From positions 1-49,837 of IMG/VR virus record IMGVR_UViG_3300013101_000014: a stretch of 49,837 bases of DNA. One strand, written 5' to 3'. Every line of letters starts with the position of its first letter. Positions within the stretch are counted from its first letter, which is position 1. The translations under genes were made by a program, and so were the position numbers. The notes beneath the pieces are model-generated. The model saw only the letters and a program-made list of their open reading frames with translations. It searched no databases and was not told the DNA's origin. Below are positions 923 through 18,343 of this stretch, piece by piece. This DNA comes from a virus.

Positions 923-1399
923 CTAGTCATTAATTCCTAGTGACTCAAGTAAGTCAGCTGGAATCGCTGTGAAATCTATTTCTACTTGAGCTTTACTCGC
1001 TTTGAGCTTAGCAATCTTAGTTGCTATTATCTCTTCAGCTACTGCTATCTTCTCAGCAGTAAGCCTACCAGACTTGATCAGCAACTTGAGGTTCTTTATT
1101 TCAGGGTCACTACTTCCAGCTCTAAGTCCTGGGTTGGCTGGGACATACTTAACACCTCCATTAAGCTCAGTCGCTTTCCTTAAGTGATTGCTCACCATTC
1201 CCGCTGTGTATTCCCTTACCAGCTTGGGTGTGCTATACTTAGCTTTAGCTTTATCACTAAAGACTGTTTCTTTCTCCAGGATAGAGTGAGTGACTATATC
1301 TATCACTTTCTTTCTATCTTCTGTAGATAAGACATACTTCTTTGTTTGCTTACCACACACACTATAAACTGCATTTATAACTGCTTGACTTTGCTTCAT
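923..1399 (-). CDS. Conserved phage protein of unknown function, 158 aa (paralogue of 3665-4165)
   Basis: Cytoplasmic and basic, starting MKQSQAVINAV. It shares with the 3665-4165 product the motifs FSDKAKAKY, AGMVSNHLRK, LNGGVKY, ANPGLRAGSSDPEIKNLKLL and a C-terminal VEIDFTAIPADLLESLGI. From memory this type of protein occurs in many T4-type and related phages without an assigned role. The start is supported by AAGGGGG upstream. Two copies of the two-part promoter motif precede it, at 1441-1466 and 1491-1516. The two copies in one genome suggest a gene duplicated within the phage. Confidence 0.8.
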   Translation of the reverse strand: MKQSQAVINAVYSVCGKQTKKYVLSTEDRKKVIDIVTHSILEKETVFSDKAKAKYSTPKLVREYTAGMVSNHLRKATELNGGVKYVPANPGLRAGSSDPEIKNLKLLIKSGRLTAEKIAVAEEIIATKIAKLKASKAQVEIDFTAIPADLLESLGIND

Positions 1400-3664: not shown

Positions 3665-4165
3665 TCACTCGCTGATGCCTAAGCTCTTGAGCAAGTCAGC
3701 TGGAATCGCTGTGAAGTCTACCTCTACTTTGTTCTTAGTAGAGAGTTCAGCTTTGCGCTCATCAATCCTTGCTTGCGCTATCACTACCTTATCTGCAGGT
3801 AGTTTGCCACTCGCTATCAGGAGTTTGAGATTCTTGATCTCAGGGTCACCACTCCCTGCTCTTATCCCTGGGTTCGCTATTTTATGCTTAACCCCTCCAT
3901 TGAACCGCTCATCCTTGCGATACCAGTTGCTCACCATACCAGGAGTATAATCCTTTCTAATTATCTCCTCAGTATGATATTTCTTCCTCGCCTTATCACT
4001 GAAGGCTGCTTCACCGGAGTGTAAGAGTGCAGACACTAACATAATCACCTGCTTTCTAAACTCGGTTGTCATCACACTCAAGATGTTGGTTCTATCTTCG
4101 AACTTAACACCGGCTTCCTTCAACACTGCATGTGTCGCTTTGTAAACTGCATCACTTTGCTTCAT
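3665..4165 (-). CDS. Conserved phage protein of unknown function, 166 aa (paralogue of 923-1399)
   Basis: Starts MKQSDAVYKATHAVL. It shares FSDKARKKY, PGMVSNWYRK, FNGGVKH, ANPGIRAGSGDPEIKNLKLL and the C-terminal VDFTAIPADLLKSLGI with the 923-1399 product. Its middle is slightly longer. The ATG has AAGGGGGAT upstream and lies inside the end of a 33-aa ORF, so translation may be coupled. Regulation is probably from promoter motifs at 4274-4299 and 4336-4361. Confidence 0.8.
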   Translation of the reverse strand: MKQSDAVYKATHAVLKEAGVKFEDRTNILSVMTTEFRKQVIMLVSALLHSGEAAFSDKARKKYHTEEIIRKDYTPGMVSNWYRKDERFNGGVKHKIANPGIRAGSGDPEIKNLKLLIASGKLPADKVVIAQARIDERKAELSTKNKVEVDFTAIPADLLKSLGISE

Positions 4166-4361: not shown

Positions 4362-4530
4362 ATAAAAACGGCCCGCTAACCTTGAAAAAAACAAGGAAGC
4401 TTCGAGTTGGTACTGGTACTATCGGCCCGCACGCTCTGACGGGAGCATTTTTGCATTTCGTTGCGGTTCACACAAGGGCCCGCGGCCTTCCACCCGGGAG
4501 GGGAAACGCAAGTACCACTACTTGCTCACA
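4362..4530. other. GC-rich intergenic island with hairpins
   Basis: No gene is visible. The block is much richer in G and C than its surroundings and carries CGGCCCGC twice (4369-4376, 4433-4440) plus a related GGGCCCGCGG (4476-4485). Hairpins include CCTTG/CAAGG around seven A (4380-4396), a 6-bp stem at 4486-4501 and a perfect 7-bp stem at 4508-4525. It separates the array (4535-7423) from the left operons. It could be a structured RNA, a terminator region or a replication site; none is proven. Confidence 0.5.
4508..4525 (-). terminator. Hairpin after the small-gene array
   Basis: GCAAGTA and TACTTGC form a perfect 7-bp stem with a 4-nt loop, 10 nt beyond the stop of the last array gene. 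The - strand continues GTTTCCCC, a poor U tract. Confidence 0.45.
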
Positions 4531-4534
4531 TTCC

Positions 4535-4711
4535 TTATAAATATAACTTTATGTATTCTTTATGATTACTATCTGGCATCAGGCGCATTACACCTATCTT
4601 ATCTAGGAGTCGCAAGAAGTCCATCTCTATATGGTCGCCGGCATTATACGTATCACACGACAACCTGAAGTATGGAACTCGTTCAGCTATTTTCACGCCC
4701 GGCGGTATCAT
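4535..4711 (-). CDS. Array micro-protein, 58 aa, last in the array
   Basis: Starts MIPPGVKIAERVPYF and carries the array pattern as HIEMDFLRLLDKIGVMRL, a hydrophobic helix ending Leu-Leu-x-Lys-Ile. The ATG overlaps the TGA of the preceding gene (ATGA), so it is probably translated by coupling. Function unknown. The pattern is shared with its neighbours 4950-5084, 5044-5205 and others. Confidence 0.6.
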   Translation of the reverse strand: MIPPGVKIAERVPYFRLSCDTYNAGDHIEMDFLRLLDKIGVMRLMPDSNHKEYIKLYL

Positions 4712-4953
4712 ATGTTCTTCCTGATCCTACGCATAACTTCACCGAAGTAACTAGGGTACTTGTGCCCAACAAGGATATCAGCCAACAAATGGGCGAAGGC
4801 CCACATAATGATTGCCTCATTCCCAGTGAGTCGCTTGTATTTCTGTTCCAACTTCACAACAGGATCTGACTCCCAAGGGTGGACACTAGAAGCCTTGTTG
4901 TTGTTGACAACACCCCATGCATTCCACATATGTTTGTTAGGTGGTGCGCTCAT
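4708..4953 (-). CDS. Array micro-protein, 81 aa, KYPxYF subtype
   Basis: Clear paralogue of the 5510-5803 product. Both have a WESDP/WENHESP stretch, then LEQKYKRLTG/IEKHKKFTG, then a hydrophobic helix ending in LLADILVGHKYPSYF or LLGRILIKNKYPDYF. The start overlaps the stop of 4950-5084 (ATGA) and its own stop overlaps the next start. Function unknown. The KYPxYF ending sets this subtype apart within the array. Confidence 0.65.
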   Translation of the reverse strand: MSAPPNKHMWNAWGVVNNNKASSVHPWESDPVVKLEQKYKRLTGNEAIIMWAFAHLLADILVGHKYPSYFGEVMRRIRKNI

Positions 4954-5084
4954 AGCAGTCCACCCATCCTTCTAAGGTTCAGTATTACATTCACCCACTC
5001 CGTGTGAGTCAAACACCTAATCTTCCTAAGTAGTGATATTAATTCACTCGCAATCGCATAATCTTCGATATCTATTATCGCCAT
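4950..5084 (-). CDS. Array micro-protein, 44 aa
   Basis: Starts MAIIDIEDYAIASEL and continues ISLLRKIRCL, the array pattern, ending NLRRMGGLL. AAGGAGGAGT directly before the ATG is an excellent ribosome site. It overlaps the end of 5044-5205 by 41 nt in another frame and ends in an ATGA overlap with the next gene. Function unknown. Confidence 0.6.
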   Translation of the reverse strand: MAIIDIEDYAIASELISLLRKIRCLTHTEWVNVILNLRRMGGLL

Positions 5085-5205
5085 ACTCCTCCTTCTGACT
5101 GAATAAGGACACCTTTAAGGATACAACCTCTTCGATGTTGATAGCACCTATCTTACGCAGTATATTTAAGAGTGGGAAGACAATGTTTAAATCTACAGTA
5201 GTCAT
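5044..5205 (-). CDS. Array micro-protein, 53 aa
   Basis: Starts MTTVDLNIVFPLLNILRKIG, placing the array helix at the N-terminus. It ends with a charged tail (SQKEEYGDNRYRRLCDCE). The ATG overlaps the TGA of the 44-aa gene upstream and follows GAGGGG. A longer reading from an upstream ATG (5247) is possible but would overlap that gene. Function unknown. Confidence 0.6.
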   Translation of the reverse strand: MTTVDLNIVFPLLNILRKIGAINIEEVVSLKVSLFSQKEEYGDNRYRRLCDCE

Positions 5206-5336
5206 ATACCCCTCGTCTGAATACAAGCCGCATTCCATGCCCACCATTGCAAAGGCACCACGCCCATTTTGCGCAATAAGTAGAGCATCCCCAAAGCAGC
5301 TTCGGCTTGCTCATCATCCCAATCACGTATCGCCAC
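5202..5336 (-). CDS. Array micro-protein, 44 aa
   Basis: Starts MAIRDWDDEQAEAALGMLY and continues LLRKMGVVPL, the array pattern, then a Trp-rich tail. The GTG start has GGAGG with 7-nt spacing. It overlaps the end of 5323-5508 in another frame and its stop overlaps the next start (ATGA). The longer ORF in another frame here (5153-5350) reads as non-protein-like and lacks the pattern, so I prefer this one. Confidence 0.6.
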   Translation of the reverse strand: MAIRDWDDEQAEAALGMLYLLRKMGVVPLQWWAWNAACIQTRGI

Positions 5337-5508
5337 GGCGGTACCTCCAAGGTATATACACTGTGAGTTGAATCCCTTCAAAGTCTTCAGTTTCCCAACG
5401 TAACACTTTTGTAATCAACTCTGCGAACTCCCATATACTATCTTGAGTGTCAGGATGCACATGGTCTTGGTCTTCGAAGGTTCTATATACGTAGTGTATG
5501 AAGTTCAT
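5323..5508 (-). CDS. Array micro-protein, 61 aa, VLRW subtype
   Basis: Clear paralogue of 6128-6292. Both carry WEF, a hydrophobic run, VLRW, then a strand-like end (LTVYIPWRY or VTLHIPERF). I start at ATG 5508 (MNFIHYVYRTFEDQ) because it sits just after the stop of 5510-5803 with GGAG upstream. An upstream ATG at 5532 overlaps the previous gene and is less likely. Function unknown. Confidence 0.6.
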   Translation of the reverse strand: MNFIHYVYRTFEDQDHVHPDTQDSIWEFAELITKVLRWETEDFEGIQLTVYIPWRYRRGDT

Positions 5509-5509
5509 T

Positions 5510-5803
5510 CTATCTCTTCTCCATCGCTGCAAAGTAATCAGGGTACTTATTCTTGATTAAGATCCGACCTAGTAAGTATACAAAATTAGATATGTCGGTT
5601 GTTCCATAGTGTGGGCGACCAGTAAACTTCTTATGCTTCTCTATTAGGCGAATGAGTGGAGACTCATGGTTTTCCCACTTCCACATGTTCAAGCTGCTAG
5701 CATTTAAAGCAACATACTTAAGTGTATCGTTTAGTGACTCAATGGTGACCGCACCACCTTTTGTTAAATCCACCTGTGTTCCCTTCCATGTATCATCACT
5801 CAT
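5510..5803 (-). CDS. Array micro-protein, 97 aa, KYPxYF subtype
   Basis: Paralogue of 4708-4953 (see the shared KHKKFTG and LLGRILIKNKYPDYF motifs). It is the largest product of the array, with an N-terminal stretch (TWKGTQVDLTKGGAV) missing from its paralogue. I choose ATG 5803, 8 nt inside the previous gene and preceded by GGAG. ATG 5815 is the alternative. Function unknown. Confidence 0.65.
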   Translation of the reverse strand: MSDDTWKGTQVDLTKGGAVTIESLNDTLKYVALNASSLNMWKWENHESPLIRLIEKHKKFTGRPHYGTTDISNFVYLLGRILIKNKYPDYFAAMEKR

Positions 5804-5996
5804 TGGCATCTCCAAAGAAATTCGTTATATTCGTATAGAGCACACCATCGTATAGCTTTTCATAGCTTTTATTTAAGTGTGCTTTGTTGAGGCCCATTCT
5901 GTTCAGTAAGAATAGAAGACTGCGTATTACACCCCTGTCTTCTAAATAATACCTATTAAATATTAAGTTATTTTGCTTTGGCGTTGATCCATTCAT
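5796..5996 (-). CDS. Array micro-protein, 66 aa
   Basis: Carries LEDRGVIRSLLFLLNRMGL, matching the array pattern at about residues 18 to 36. It starts 29 nt inside the preceding gene with only a weak AAAGAG upstream, so coupling is likely. It ends 8 nt inside the next gene. Function unknown. Confidence 0.55.
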   Translation of the reverse strand: MNGSTPKQNNLIFNRYYLEDRGVIRSLLFLLNRMGLNKAHLNKSYEKLYDGVLYTNITNFFGDANE

Positions 5997-6123
5997 TTAT
6001 AAACTCTTTATCATCTAAGCCAAATAGACCTATATGTCCAAGTACAGCAAATTTTGTTAACACATCCATCTTACTTAAAACAGATAAGAGGCCCACTATT
6101 ATTAATTTATCTTCTGTAGTCAT
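5968..6123 (-). CDS. Array micro-protein, 51 aa
   Basis: Starts MTTEDKLIIVGLLSVLSKMD, with the array helix at the very N-terminus, then FGLDDKEFINEW towards the end. The ATG lies 4 nt after the preceding stop with a weak AAAG, which fits re-initiation. Function unknown; the pattern match and tight packing support it. Confidence 0.55.
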   Translation of the reverse strand: MTTEDKLIIVGLLSVLSKMDVLTKFAVLGHIGLFGLDDKEFINEWINAKAK

Positions 6124-6127
6124 ATCT

Positions 6128-6292
6128 TTATTCTACAAACCTCTCAGGAATATGAAGTGTGACGACATCTAGCGATGCAACTCTTTCACATTTCCATCGC
6201 AACACCCTTATAATCATAAACTCCCAGAATTTCCCATACCGGTCACTTTGCATTTGTAAGATCTTATTAAATGATATAGGCTTATGATGCAT
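6128..6292 (-). CDS. Array micro-protein, 54 aa, VLRW subtype
   Basis: Starts MHHKPISFNKILQM. It contains KFWEFMIIRVLRW and VTLHIPERF, aligning with SIWEFAELITKVLRW and LTVYIPWRY of 5323-5508. Upstream is a 48-nt spacer with a GC-rich GGGGGCCC block (6311-6328), the largest gap in the array. The ribosome site is weak (AAGGTG, more than 10 nt away). Function unknown. Confidence 0.55.
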   Translation of the reverse strand: MHHKPISFNKILQMQSDRYGKFWEFMIIRVLRWKCERVASLDVVTLHIPERFVE

Positions 6293-6340
6293 AATTTTCA
6301 CTTACACCTTCGGGGGCCCTTTTAGGGGGTAAAACAACTA

Positions 6341-6592
6341 TTACATCCACCTGTTCAACCCTTGGACCTCAACGTAAGTAGGACAATTATTTGGTACACC
6401 CACTATACCACTTATGTTAAACATTGATGCCATTGGGGATAAAGTAACTGAACACACCTTGACATGTTCAAGGCTGCATGCCTTATTTAAAAGAATAGCT
6501 AAAAATGATACAATAAGCTGGCGTGACTCTTCAGGGATCGCACTGCTACTTGATAATACATATGCGCCATTGTGTGTTTTATAAATATTCAT
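6341..6592 (-). CDS. Array micro-protein, 83 aa
   Basis: Carries IPEESRQLIVSFLAILLNKA, the array pattern, near residues 19 to 38. The C-terminal half (VKVCSVTLSPMASMFNISG) looks like beta strands. Its start overlaps the end of 6589-6816 by 4 nt. AAAAGGG precedes the ATG. Function unknown. Confidence 0.6.
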   Translation of the reverse strand: MNIYKTHNGAYVLSSSSAIPEESRQLIVSFLAILLNKACSLEHVKVCSVTLSPMASMFNISGIVGVPNNCPTYVEVQGLNRWM

Positions 6593-6816
6593 AAATTCGC
6601 CCTTTTCATTAGTCTCATTGCTAGATTAAGAACCCAATTGTCATCTTCTATTTCCATCTTTGGATGAAGCTTAGCCATTAGAATTAGGAACTCTGTTATG
6701 GCTATAACCTCTGCATGATGATATCTATATGTATATTCAGTCTCATCCATTTCCCAATAAATATCCTCTGCCTCAGCTACAGAAATCCCACTTTTAGATC
6801 TTATATATGGTTTCAT
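6589..6816 (-). CDS. Array micro-protein, 75 aa
   Basis: Acidic N-terminal half (AEAEDIYWEMDETEYTY) followed by HAEVIAITEFLILMAKLH, the array pattern, and a basic end (MRLMKRANL). The ATG overlaps the preceding stop (ATGA). Function unknown. Confidence 0.6.
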   Translation of the reverse strand: MKPYIRSKSGISVAEAEDIYWEMDETEYTYRYHHAEVIAITEFLILMAKLHPKMEIEDDNWVLNLAMRLMKRANL

Positions 6817-7031
6817 ATCTTTTTAAATGCTTTCTCTATAGCCTTATATGAATCCGGTGATACGTATAATTTATCAGGAGTGCCAAGGTTGTGCAATATC
6901 TCATCCATGCCGAAACGTATTTTGAATCCGGCATGTGTTGCTACAGAGACACAATGGATGCGCTCAAGAAGATTTATAAAATCCATTATTGCTATGTCTT
7001 CTTCTACGGAGAAGAACTTAGGCCAAGCCAT
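6813..7031 (-). CDS. Array micro-protein, 72 aa
   Basis: Starts MAWPKFFSVEEDIAIMDF and continues INLLERIHCV, the array pattern, then a predicted mixed domain ending KAIEKAFKKI. It begins 14 nt inside the preceding gene. Function unknown. Confidence 0.6.
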   Translation of the reverse strand: MAWPKFFSVEEDIAIMDFINLLERIHCVSVATHAGFKIRFGMDEILHNLGTPDKLYVSPDSYKAIEKAFKKI

Positions 7032-7239
7032 CTAGTTTCTTCTTTTCATATTTCTTCATAACGTCTCCCCAAACTAATATTATTTTGTACTCATCACGAC
7101 TTGAGTCATAATGCCTTTCTACACCAAATCTACCATACTCTGTTGGAGAGCTTCTATGCTCTGGACAAAAAAGAGAACATACGACAATAAGGAACTTCCT
7201 TATCATATCTACCTCACTTCTTGTATATAGTTTTTTCAT
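7018..7239 (-). CDS. Array micro-protein, 73 aa
   Basis: Contains YTRSEVDMIRKFLIVVCSLF, a looser form of the array pattern, then a strand-rich end (YKIILVWGDVMKKYEKKK). I start at ATG 7239, with AGAGGTAGGT upstream; GTG 7242 is one codon longer. It overlaps 7214-7423 by 26 nt. Function unknown. Confidence 0.6.
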   Translation of the reverse strand: MKKLYTRSEVDMIRKFLIVVCSLFCPEHRSSPTEYGRFGVERHYDSSRDEYKIILVWGDVMKKYEKKKLDGLA

Positions 7240-7423
7240 CACCTACCTCTAGTATTGAATTAAGACCCTGATACTGTGGAGATGGTGAAGGGTGTGAACC
7301 TACAAACCCTTGCTCAATAGCTTTTAGTAAGCCATTTATGCCGACCATATCATCTATAAACTTCTTCTCACAGACTCTTCCTAATAATTTTATAAATTCA
7401 CGTTTTATTGTTATATCAACCAT
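7214..7423 (-). CDS. Array micro-protein, 69 aa, first of the array
   Basis: Starts MVDITIKREFIKLLGRVC, the array pattern at the N-terminus, then FIDDMVGINGLLKAIEQG. There is no ribosome site. The ATG sits 6 nt after TATAAT (7430-7435), which predicts a transcript starting at or next to the ATG. It heads the 15-gene run down to 4535. Function unknown. Confidence 0.65.
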   Translation of the reverse strand: MVDITIKREFIKLLGRVCEKKFIDDMVGINGLLKAIEQGFVGSHPSPSPQYQGLNSILEVGDEKTIYKK

Positions 7424-7468: not shown

Positions 7469-7747
7469 ATGGATGTTGTAGTTTGGACAGGTATCACTTT
7501 TGGGGTTATTGCTCTATCATTAATTATGTACATGTGTAGAGAGGCCTACTACACATGGAAAGTAGTTACTAAAATAAGAGCACACGCCAAGGCAATAACC
7601 GACGTTAATAAAAAAGTAACATCTATTAAAGACTTTACACTACTGATGTGTAAACTTAAATTAATGAAGTATGAAAATGCCTGGTTAGTAGAAGTGAACT
7701 ACTTAAGCAAGGCTCAAGTTAAAATTGATAATATTAGAAAAATTTAA
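7469..7747 (+). CDS. Small single-pass membrane protein, 92 aa
   Basis: The only + strand gene of the left 8.8 kb. Residues 4 to 23 (VVWTGITFGVIALSLIMYMC) form a clear membrane helix, followed by a basic, probably cytoplasmic or periplasmic helical domain (TWKVVTKIRAHAKAITDVNKK). One N-terminal membrane helix and a charged tail would fit a spanin-like, holin-associated or superinfection protein, but no signature decides this. It converges with 7744-8007, overlapping by 4 nt. The start lies 6 nt after a -10 box. Confidence 0.6.
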   Translation: MDVVVWTGITFGVIALSLIMYMCREAYYTWKVVTKIRAHAKAITDVNKKVTSIKDFTLLMCKLKLMKYENAWLVEVNYLSKAQVKIDNIRKI

Positions 7748-8007
7748 ACCCCAATATTAAAATTACATATCTCATACGGATGATAAGGGTCTATCCCTAC
7801 TGCCAATGTTAACGCAACAATTGTATTAGCCTCTTTAATACCTATTCTTAACAATAAGCAAGAAAAGAGAGCAATATTATTTCTGTGGAGGGAGGGTAAC
7901 CATAGGCCATTCAGCTTTGAGTCTCTCTTTATTGATTGTATCCAAGTGCTTCTGGAATCTTGTTCTAGAGATGTTTCTCCACCCTGTTCCAAGGAGTTTG
8001 ACTTCAT
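7744..8007 (-). CDS. Array-like micro-protein with an overprinted N-terminus, 87 aa
   Basis: The last 48 residues (LHRNNIALFSCLLLRIGI onward) match the array pattern. The first part, from ATG 8007 behind AAGGGTG with 6-nt spacing, lies in another frame over the end of 7877-8215 for 131 nt. If this start is right, one stretch of DNA encodes two proteins. No in-frame ATG or GTG exists after the upstream stop; a TTG near 7855 is the only short alternative. Confidence 0.45.
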   Translation of the reverse strand: MKSNSLEQGGETSLEQDSRSTWIQSIKRDSKLNGLWLPSLHRNNIALFSCLLLRIGIKEANTIVALTLAVGIDPYHPYEICNFNIGV

Positions 8008-8215
8008 AGATTTCACCCTTTGTATGCTTTATCGTCGTATTGTCCGCTTTCGCCTGCTCTTTGTTTATTTTTTTAAAATAACCGCGTCTATCATTCACGT
8101 CGCATAACACCTCAATAAAAGTATTATTTTTTTCTTCTTCCGTGTCTAAGAACCGCATTCGCAATAATCTGGCCACCTGTGTCTCCTTTGTGTATTGGTA
8201 CGCTATAATGCTCAT
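7877..8215 (-). CDS. Hypothetical protein, 112 aa
   Basis: Basic, mixed alpha/beta, with a protein-like central part (TFIEVLCDVNDRRGYFKK, GEIYEVKLLGTGWRN). No family is recognised. The ATG at 8215 has AGGAA nearby, but the first 92 nt overlap the 8124-8300 gene in another frame; an in-frame ATG at 8158 would reduce this. Its 3' part overlaps 7744-8007. Confidence 0.6.
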   Translation of the reverse strand: MSIIAYQYTKETQVARLLRMRFLDTEEEKNNTFIEVLCDVNDRRGYFKKINKEQAKADNTTIKHTKGEIYEVKLLGTGWRNISRTRFQKHLDTINKERLKAEWPMVTLPPQK

Positions 8216-8323: not shown

Positions 8324-8575
8324 TTAAGCTAGGTCTTCGCTATTTTTCATACTACGAAAGGATTCGACTCCAGAAGTGGAATCTATAAGGGCATTGTGTG
8401 TTAACACGTCTAAGGCCATTTCTAATCTTTGGTTTTGAGTTGGTGGCTTGGGATTTAAGAATTCAGGTAAGCACTGCGATTTAAAAGGACAAATAATGCA
8501 ACGAGTAGAATTCATGCATTTTCCATCCACGCTTACAATCTCTTCTAAAGTTTTTTCATCAATACTTGCTAACAT
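8324..8575 (-). CDS. Cysteine-motif protein, 83 aa (tandem paralogue)
   Basis: Carries VDGKCMNSTRCIICPFKSQC, a spaced C, CxxCP, C motif that could bind zinc or an iron-sulphur cluster. The upstream neighbour has the same motif, so they look like tandem duplicates. I start at ATG 8575 (MLASIDEKTLEEI), just after the stop of 8577-8819; GTG 8599 would overlap that gene. Function unknown. Confidence 0.6.
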   Translation of the reverse strand: MLASIDEKTLEEIVSVDGKCMNSTRCIICPFKSQCLPEFLNPKPPTQNQRLEMALDVLTHNALIDSTSGVESFRSMKNSEDLA

Positions 8576-8576
8576 A

Positions 8577-8819
8577 TTAAAGTAGGTACTCCTCAACACT
8601 AATATCTAATAATAATCTCATTGCAATATCTTTATACCTTGCATCGGCATCGTCCTCAGTTTCTCCGTCAATTCGCACAACTTCGGCACAACTCTTATAA
8701 GTGCCATCTTTTCGCTTTTTTAGCTTACTAAGCGGGCACTGCTCACATATTGTTGGATTACTCCAGCAGCAATTGCCCTCTTTATCTATTATTTTCTGTA
8801 ATATGTCTTTCTTATCCAT
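8577..8819 (-). CDS. Cysteine-motif protein, 80 aa (tandem paralogue)
   Basis: Carries EGNCCWSNPTICEQCPL and a later KSC, aligning with the motif in 8324-8575 (Gly, Cys, then CxxCP, then Cys). The rest is a helical acidic domain (GETEDDADARYKD). ATG 8828 lies inside the -10 box, so I prefer ATG 8819, 7 nt after TATAAT. Metal binding is inferred from the cysteines alone. Confidence 0.6.
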   Translation of the reverse strand: MDKKDILQKIIDKEGNCCWSNPTICEQCPLSKLKKRKDGTYKSCAEVVRIDGETEDDADARYKDIAMRLLLDISVEEYLL

Positions 8820-8826
8820 CTCATCC

Positions 8827-8832
8827 ATTATA
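8827..8832 (-). promoter_or_regulatory. Promoter -10 box of the 8819-8324 unit
   Basis: TATAAT on the - strand, 7 nt upstream of the 8819 ATG, back to back with the + strand promoter at 8873-8878. Confidence 0.4.
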
Positions 8833-17051: not shown

Positions 17052-17708
17052 ATGGCAGGACTTGCCCCGTTCTTTATTACTGGAGCGAACGCTAAAATTA
17101 AGATCAATGATAAGACGATGGCGTTCGCACAGAACTTTTCCTATTCAATTACTGTAAAGCATGTAAAACCTAAGGTTCTTGGGCGATTTGAAGTTGATAG
17201 CATTGAACCCGTATCCTATGAGGTTACAGGCTCTTTCTCCATTATTCGATATGCCAAAGGTGCAGCTGGAGCTATAAGTAGCACTAAGGCTGGTGGTAGC
17301 TTTCAAAGAGTTGTAGATGGAAAAGTTGTACAGCAAGAAGGAGTTAGCAACCTTAAAGCCCCAAATGGAGTTTCAGATAAAGGTAATGGTGTTGGAGCAT
17401 GGGGCGACGATGGTAAAGACTTCTTCAACTCCGGTAGAGCAAATGAAGCCTTTAATCCTGCATCTTTTAAACTGGCAACATTTTTTAATATAGAAATTTG
17501 GCAAAAACTTGCTGGTGGCAATCAATGTGGCATAGCAAGAATAAGAGACTGTAGAATAGAAAGAGCAGATTTCAATATAGCAGGTAAAACTGCGCCAGCA
17601 ATTCAAATTTTTAACTTTACTGCGATATATGCCGATGAGGATAGTTTCTTAGCAGATTTTTCTAGTACAAGTCCTGCCGGTAGCGCAGGTAACCAGGTGA
17701 GAGCATAA
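17052..17708 (+). CDS. Tail tube-like protein, 218 aa (paralogue 2)
   Basis: Paralogue of the 16494-17033 product: FFITGANAKIKINDKTMAF, LGRFEVDSIEPVSYEVTGSF, SIIRY and IFNFTAIYADEDSF. It carries about 40 extra residues in a loop near 80 to 120. GAGG is upstream; the stop overlaps the next start. It may be an alternative tube subunit, or a tube-baseplate or tube-neck adaptor ring. Confidence 0.7.
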   Translation: MAGLAPFFITGANAKIKINDKTMAFAQNFSYSITVKHVKPKVLGRFEVDSIEPVSYEVTGSFSIIRYAKGAAGAISSTKAGGSFQRVVDGKVVQQEGVSNLKAPNGVSDKGNGVGAWGDDGKDFFNSGRANEAFNPASFKLATFFNIEIWQKLAGGNQCGIARIRDCRIERADFNIAGKTAPAIQIFNFTAIYADEDSFLADFSSTSPAGSAGNQVRA

Positions 17709-18343
17709 TGGCTAGTGATTTTGGTACAGGCCAATCATTTGGCCAAACTCTTTTAGATAATGTTTCCGGTGGAATAGCTCCTATATTTAGTGCTAAGCCA
17801 TCAGCTAAGTACACAAGTGGTGCTCGCTGTGTAATTAGAGTAAACAATAGAATTGTCGGGTTTGCATTCCAAGCTTCATGGCGTATAAACACAGTACAAG
17901 AAGAGATATTCACGATTGATGACTATCTTCCTTATGAATTAGCACCCCAAAGAATTTCAGTTGAGGGTACATTAGGTATGTGGCATATACCTGGCCAAGG
18001 TGCCTCTGCCGAATACACTCAATCAAATGTTTTATCTTTTATGACTCATCGTTATATATCTATAGAGATAAGAGATTCAGCAACCAATGATTTGCTGTTT
18101 CAAACCTCTAAAGCTGCAATAACTTCTAGAATAGAAGATGTTAAGACTGATGAGCTTAACCGCATCACCCTTAGCTTTAAAGCAATTGGCTGGCAAGATG
18201 AAAAAGCGCCAACTCCACAGAAAACTCAAGAAGTTAAGCAATTTCAAGACGATGGTAAGGGTATCACCCCAAATACATCTGTTGTTTTTGACACCCCTCC
18301 ATATAAGATTCCAGGAAGTTTTGATCCAAGCTCTATAGCATAG
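17708..18343 (+). CDS. Tail tube-like protein, 211 aa (putative paralogue 3)
   Basis: Weaker relative of the two upstream tube genes: CVIRVNNRIVGFAFQASW, then YLPYELAPQRISVEGTLGMW in the same positions as their NAKIK and YEV segments. The C-terminal third is longer and hydrophilic. TAATG overlap at its start. A tube-initiator or adaptor role is inferred from tandem position. Confidence 0.55.
   Translation: MASDFGTGQSFGQTLLDNVSGGIAPIFSAKPSAKYTSGARCVIRVNNRIVGFAFQASWRINTVQEEIFTIDDYLPYELAPQRISVEGTLGMWHIPGQGASAEYTQSNVLSFMTHRYISIEIRDSATNDLLFQTSKAAITSRIEDVKTDELNRITLSFKAIGWQDEKAPTPQKTQEVKQFQDDGKGITPNTSVVFDTPPYKIPGSFDPSSIA

Follow-up and report, generated by a model that had tools for sequence, protein, structure and literature searches.

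A row of overlapping micro-genes in a contractile-tailed phage: a recurring helix joined to virion-protein fragments, possibly as decoys

What fifteen tiny, overlapping genes do side by side in a phage genome, and whether they belong together, are the questions raised by a locus in IMG/VR record IMGVR_UViG_3300013101_000014. The window, which is the whole stretch of DNA analysed, covers positions 1-49,837 of that record and is a 49,837-base fragment of a virus genome. The phage is large and contractile-tailed. Among named relatives, Myxococcus phage Mx1 alone has a sheath that aligns with that of the window phage over most of its length, at 34% identity. The 482-residue protein is the major capsid protein (PHROG 752, E 9e-60; SPO1 Gp6.1, PDB 9vel, E 1e-56). 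Relatives were gathered from viral contigs by searches with the sheath and with the conserved neighbour gene of the array, with sheath identities of about 50-65% for most of them. Nearly all the sequences compared are metagenomic fragments, gene calls were taken from open reading frames (ORFs), and the helix motif and virion fragments described below are short. Comparing the DNA of the array locus directly with named phages gave no match, a search via g14 recovered no relatives, and no strain close to the window turned up. The host scan returned only two contigs, both metagenome-assembled, from bins assigned to Cytophagales and Saprospiraceae.

The ORF listing confirmed what an earlier sequence-only reading had described, namely 15 small minus-strand genes of 44-97 codons in a tight row at 4535-7423, most of them linked by ATGA or longer overlaps. 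Eleven of the 14 junctions overlap, five by the 4-nt ATGA type and six by 8-41 nt, and the other three are gaps of 1, 4 and 48 nt. That range proved too narrow, because the helix also occurs in an ORF at 7744-8016 (minus strand) and perhaps in another at 7469-7747 (plus strand). The features are as follows, with helix p-values and shuffle counts from the test described below.

7469-7747, plus strand: possible divergent member; N-terminal hydrophobic segment and FTLLMCKLKLM, read by eye
7744-8016, minus strand: ORF outside the range first reported; FSCLLLRIGIK (helix score 9.3) and C-terminal VGIDPYHPYEICN
g1, 7214-7423, minus strand: 69 aa; first array gene; annotated frame best by codon score; helix look-alike FIKLLGRV, not significant against shuffles
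g2, 7018-7242, minus strand: 74 aa; ORF; no match to the helix profile
g3, 6813-7031, minus strand: 72 aa; helix FINLLERIHCV (p 0.022) and C-terminal capsid mimic ILHNLGTPDKLYVSPDSYKAIEKAF
g4, 6589-6816, minus strand: 75 aa; ATGA overlaps; weak helix look-alike FLILMAKLHPK
g5, 6341-6592, minus strand: 83 aa; ATGA overlap; no match to the helix profile
g6, 6128-6292, minus strand: 54 aa; paralogue of g10; no match to the helix profile
g7, 5968-6123, minus strand: 51 aa; helix LLSVLSKMDVL (p 0.006)
g8, 5796-5996, minus strand: 66 aa; helix look-alike LLFLLNRMGLN (p 0.27)
g9, 5510-5803, minus strand: 97 aa; capsid mimic GTQVDLTKGGAVTIESLNDTLKYVALNASSLNMW and putative helix FVYLLGRILIK
g10, 5323-5508, minus strand: 61 aa; paralogue of g6; no match to the helix profile
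g11, 5202-5336, minus strand: 44 aa; GTG start after GGAGGT; helix MLYLLRKMGVV (0/500 shuffles)
g12, 5044-5205, minus strand: 53 aa; helix LLNILRKIGAI (0/500 shuffles)
g13, 4950-5084, minus strand: 44 aa; helix LISLLRKIRCL (p 0.05); AAGGAGGAG before the ATG
g14, 4708-4953, minus strand: 81 aa; paralogue of g9; probable capsid mimic WESDPVVKLEQKYKRLTG
g15, 4535-4711, minus strand: 58 aa; helix FLRLLDKIGVM (0/500 shuffles)

A TATAAT-like box was seen by eye immediately upstream of g1; promoter and terminator scans of the array locus gave nothing beyond shuffles. A codon model built from the late genes ranked the annotated frame first of six in 10 of the 15 array genes (2.5 expected). Between relatives, homologous micro-gene pairs mostly gave pN/pS values of 0.28-0.8, their synonymous sites being nearly saturated, and this range is what translated proteins should show; the pooled value of 0.57 comes from a set that includes a few chance ORFs and is not to be over-read.

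The shared helix follows the motif [LMF][LIV]xLLx[KR]L[GDEN][VI][IVL] and is enriched in the array locus (Fisher p 5e-18). In this test, a profile trained on two phages (G001 and G004) and applied to nine other contigs found the helix in 33 of 648 small ORFs at the locus (5.1%), compared with 18 of 4393 elsewhere (0.41%) and about 0.1-0.15% of shuffled sequences. Motif counts made later are descriptive only, since the profile then included members of the counted sets. The window genes were tested with a profile built only from another phage (G001) and compared with shuffles, and six of the 15 passed (g3, g7, g11, g12, g13 and g15). The earlier statement that most of the genes carry the helix is confirmed only in part, for these six; g1, g4, g8, g9 and g14 have look-alikes that fall below the shuffle threshold, and g2, g5, g6 and g10 do not match the profile. 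Within one phage, helix residues resemble one another more than they do across phages (p about 0.003 by permutation). The helix was also considered as a copy taken from some conserved long protein; this was rejected, as no long protein scored near the micro-genes in the phages examined. Recurrence of the helix across arrays, together with the lack of any long phage protein that scores comparably, suggests that it has a dedicated partner. The predicted structure of A7, the most conserved helix-bearing member (mean pLDDT 73), had no Foldseek match at E <0.5, and a resemblance to RNA polymerase alpha subunits (Z 3.7, rmsd 3.8, 57 aligned) was not above background. The g3 family is predicted, at low confidence, to form three helices. 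Cysteine-rich micro-proteins with paired CxxC motifs and the same helix behind them were seen in the arrays of G010, G011, G040 and G025. Small proteins with MEYLTFAQNGQWTLHKA-like starts occur in the loci of G002, G009, G011, G016, G029, G040 and G045; these and several longer phage proteins have a common N-terminal GQWxLxK segment, perhaps a sorting signal.

In many micro-proteins the helix, typically one motif per gene, is joined to a piece of one of the phage's own virion proteins; some start out like the sheath or the tube. Such fragments were seen in 14 phages including the window, and the same segments recur: capsid residues 36-74, 133-167 and 230-267, sheath 1-21, tail tube 7-33 and a fibre segment; a capsid spine segment is named among the recurring pieces. 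A set of 171 micro-proteins was searched against the family's long ORFs; 11 of them matched at E <=0.03 and five at 0.001, compared with 3.5 and 0.05 for shuffles. Small ORFs matched the listed virion classes at 0.001 in 17 of 2,741 cases at the locus and in 4 of 1,546 outside it. Two of these four outside matches look like ordinary tail homologues, and a further match outside the locus, to a helix-bearing micro-gene of a second array in G011, reached 0.002. Although the search covered all long ORFs, the significant helix-bearing matches were all to virion proteins. Profile-profile comparison of the mimic families gave E 1e-9 for capsid 36-74, 6e-8 for sheath 1-21, 4e-7 for tube 7-33 and 2.8e-5 for capsid 230-267; because the mimic alignments consist of sequences chosen as mimics, these E-values describe match quality, and significance comes from the shuffle and locus controls. 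In G013, six of about nine array genes are recognisable as mimics, and in one protein of G029 (sheath and tube) and one of G019 (two capsid pieces) separate fragments lie on both sides of the helix. A PGESD segment of G010 and G021 was assigned no source.

In the window, g9 matched capsid residues 37-71 (16.6 bits, 0/200 shuffles; BLASTP E 1e-5 to 7e-5) and its family matched capsid 36-74 at E 1e-9, and g3 matched capsid residues 242-266 (1.8 bits, 0/200 shuffles) and its family, from seven phages, matched the capsid at E 2.8e-5. Judged by these alignments, g9 and g3 are capsid mimics. The g9 paralogue g14 is a probable capsid mimic: alone, it was not significant against the capsid profile, and its likeness, at about residues 71-90, was read by eye. 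The C-terminus of the 7744-8016 ORF gave a suggestive match (3/300 shuffles) to residues 74-86 of a tube-like profile, and this ORF probably mimics the phage's own tube-like protein at 17708-18343. The remaining array genes of the window had no recognised source.

Two fragments could be traced at the DNA level. The capsid mimic of G004 matched its own capsid gene at 56 of 84 nt and 20 of 28 third positions, whereas the other phages' capsid genes (five genes compared in all) matched at 37-48 nt and 4-12 third positions. Similarly, the sheath mimic of G010 matched its own sheath gene at 45 of 54 nt and 14 of 18 third positions, against 31-41 nt and 5-11 third positions for 13 other sheath genes. 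Since the own gene is the best DNA match in both cases, third positions included, the simplest reading is that these fragments were copied from the phages' own virion genes. In older mimics the copying signal is gone, and at the protein level the own virion protein is not always the closest.

Comparison of all array genes with one another by BLASTP joined g9 with g14 (E 3e-9) and g6 with g10 (E 6e-6) as clear paralogues; g7, g12 and g13 have weak mutual links, and links beyond the two pairs are weak and helix-based. Many sheath-sharing relatives, members of a family of large myoviruses, have similar rows of tiny genes at the same place, flanked by the neighbour gene on one side and the late operon on the other, the largest with about 35 genes (G004). 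G011 has a second group of helix ORFs (L102-L110), at about +67.7 to +70.6 kb relative to the sheath, and one ORF of this group carries a fibre mimic, WDPSANGGVGGEL. The paralogous pairs, the within-phage likeness of the helix and the arrays in related phages support the idea of a tandem family that diversified through duplication. The earlier reading had overlooked the virion fragments joined to the helix, which add fragment capture to duplication; the set is built by capture, duplication and divergence.

The surroundings of the array are also conserved.

3665-4165, minus strand: flanking gene, conserved, with an NPGxRAG motif; second copy at 923-1399 (minus strand)
4370-4540, minus strand: conserved non-coding element of about 170 nt, directly downstream of g15, between the array and the neighbour gene
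8324-8599 and 8577-8828, minus strand: two conserved cysteine-motif genes, between the array and the late genes

Relatives of the NPGxRAG gene were found at 51 viral loci, often in several copies per phage, and the family had no match in PHROG. The non-coding element had nhmmer matches at the same place in about 12 relatives (e.g. L131:9160-9340, L157:7700-7885 and L161:6480-6666). It had no match in Rfam, its fold in the window was not better than shuffles (z -0.77), and this alignment gave no supported consensus structure. The cysteine-motif genes belong to a cluster of 32 ORFs from 22 phages at the same place.

A search with 57 micro-proteins against Pfam, PHROGs, NCBIfam and PADLOC gave no convincing match, only isolated weak ones, the best being PADLOC Cas2_II (7e-4, one member); one weak match was to the SU10 capsid (0.046), and a concatenated micro-protein query had no match in named phages. 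The view that no described system resembles the array agrees with these databases, with the named phages and with the open-licence literature. The window shows both features by which we propose to define the family, the helix in several genes and a significant virion fragment (g9 and g3). The array looks like an unreported kind of decoy or blocking kit, described systems of this kind not having been found in the open-licence literature.

How might such a kit work? Anti-defence activity or host modulation would be a plausible role for the array. Virion proteins are known to trigger bacterial defences. Known activators are a capsid protein for CapRel (PMC9712102), a major head protein for staphylococcal Thoeris (PMC11312562) and the tail tube for DSR2, which is in turn blocked by the phage protein DSAD1, a competitor for the tube-binding site (PMC11087589). 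Because virion proteins act as triggers and a phage competitor of one sensor exists, we place first the reading that the micro-proteins are competitive decoys made from captured fragments of the phage's own virion proteins and the shared helix; it is a first guess, with a probability of roughly 0.38. Each micro-protein would present part of a virion protein (capsid, sheath, tube, baseplate or fibre) to which another factor responds, most likely a host defence sensor triggered by virion proteins. It would fill the site of that factor without the remaining part of the protein needed for activation. The helix would be the common functional part, which might dock to one partner, let the proteins self-associate or mark them for degradation, and the many different pieces could cover many sensors or epitopes. 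A trigger fragment could also activate a sensor instead of blocking it, and since most micro-genes have no recognisable source, mimicry may cover only part of the set. A more doubtful extension is that the array acts as a changing repertoire of protein decoys, each an own virion piece with a docking helix, directed against factors that recognise virion proteins, which would be like an immune array in logic, not in descent. CRISPR-like memory would hold pieces of foreign invaders, and the two traceable pieces come from the phages' own genes.

The main rival, which we regard as rather unlikely, is that the fragments are dominant-negative and spoil the assembly of virions by related phages or satellites that share the cell. 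They would then be expressed early or in a dormant state, with timing or a counter-factor sparing the phage's own assembly. The recurrence of the sheath N-terminus and of capsid segments speaks for it, as we take these to lie at or near subunit contacts in these folds. Tab, a prophage-encoded protein, blocks tail assembly while an anti-Tab protects the phage itself (PMC10884400), which is why interference is placed second; Tab, however, is not described as a virion fragment. Moreover, fragments taken from a phage's own genes should harm its own assembly too. It is less probable still that the micro-proteins bind nascent virion proteins of their own phage and delay or shape assembly, or enter the virion as passengers. 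The match of fragments to own virion proteins and the two proteins with separate fragments around the helix would agree with such a role, but up to 35 fast-diverging genes go far beyond what an assembly regulator needs, and array content differs strongly among related phages.

Similarly improbable is a gene nursery, in which recombination places genome pieces beside the helix module, a few products gain unrelated host-directed functions and virion likeness is mainly a by-product. Rapid turnover and the joining of unrelated cysteine-rich and beta-rich modules to the helix fit this view; the recurrence of the same segments of a few virion proteins in independent phages, and the confinement of significant helix-bearing matches to virion proteins in a search of all long ORFs, argue against it. 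That the row is merely dense ORFs with ordinary hydrophobic helices is very improbable: the mostly weak pairwise scores inside the window speak for it, but locus enrichment, shuffle controls, profile matches, the codon signal and DNA-level copying contradict it.

Bacterial defences often sense virion proteins, and we know of no general phage answer to many such sensors. If the decoy reading is true, an array of own virion pieces would be such an answer; otherwise it may be a new form of interference with virion assembly. The array also shows small genes arising through capture of coding fragments beside a reusable module, and it singles out segments of capsid, tube and sheath that probably matter as recognition sites.

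The array resembles the early-region clusters of small genes in large lytic phages, which likewise hold numerous tiny, poorly conserved genes that overlap and run divergently from the late genes; we know of no such cluster that shares one helix or consists of virion gene fragments. DSAD1 comes close to the proposed mode of action, as a small phage protein that competes with the tail tube for a sensor site, although the available part of that report (PMC11087589) does not describe it as a copy of the tube and describes no array or shared helix. Tab, from Pseudomonas prophage JBD26, is likewise phage-encoded, acts on virion proteins and comes with self-protection, but it is a single gene that acts on the tape measure of other phages and is described without virion fragments or an array (PMC10884400). 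The Gol peptide of the T4 capsid, which acts with Lit, is likewise a short internal capsid segment that on its own acts on a host defence protein (cited in PMC9712102); Gol is an activator and part of the full capsid protein, whereas the array would offer such segments as separate genes.
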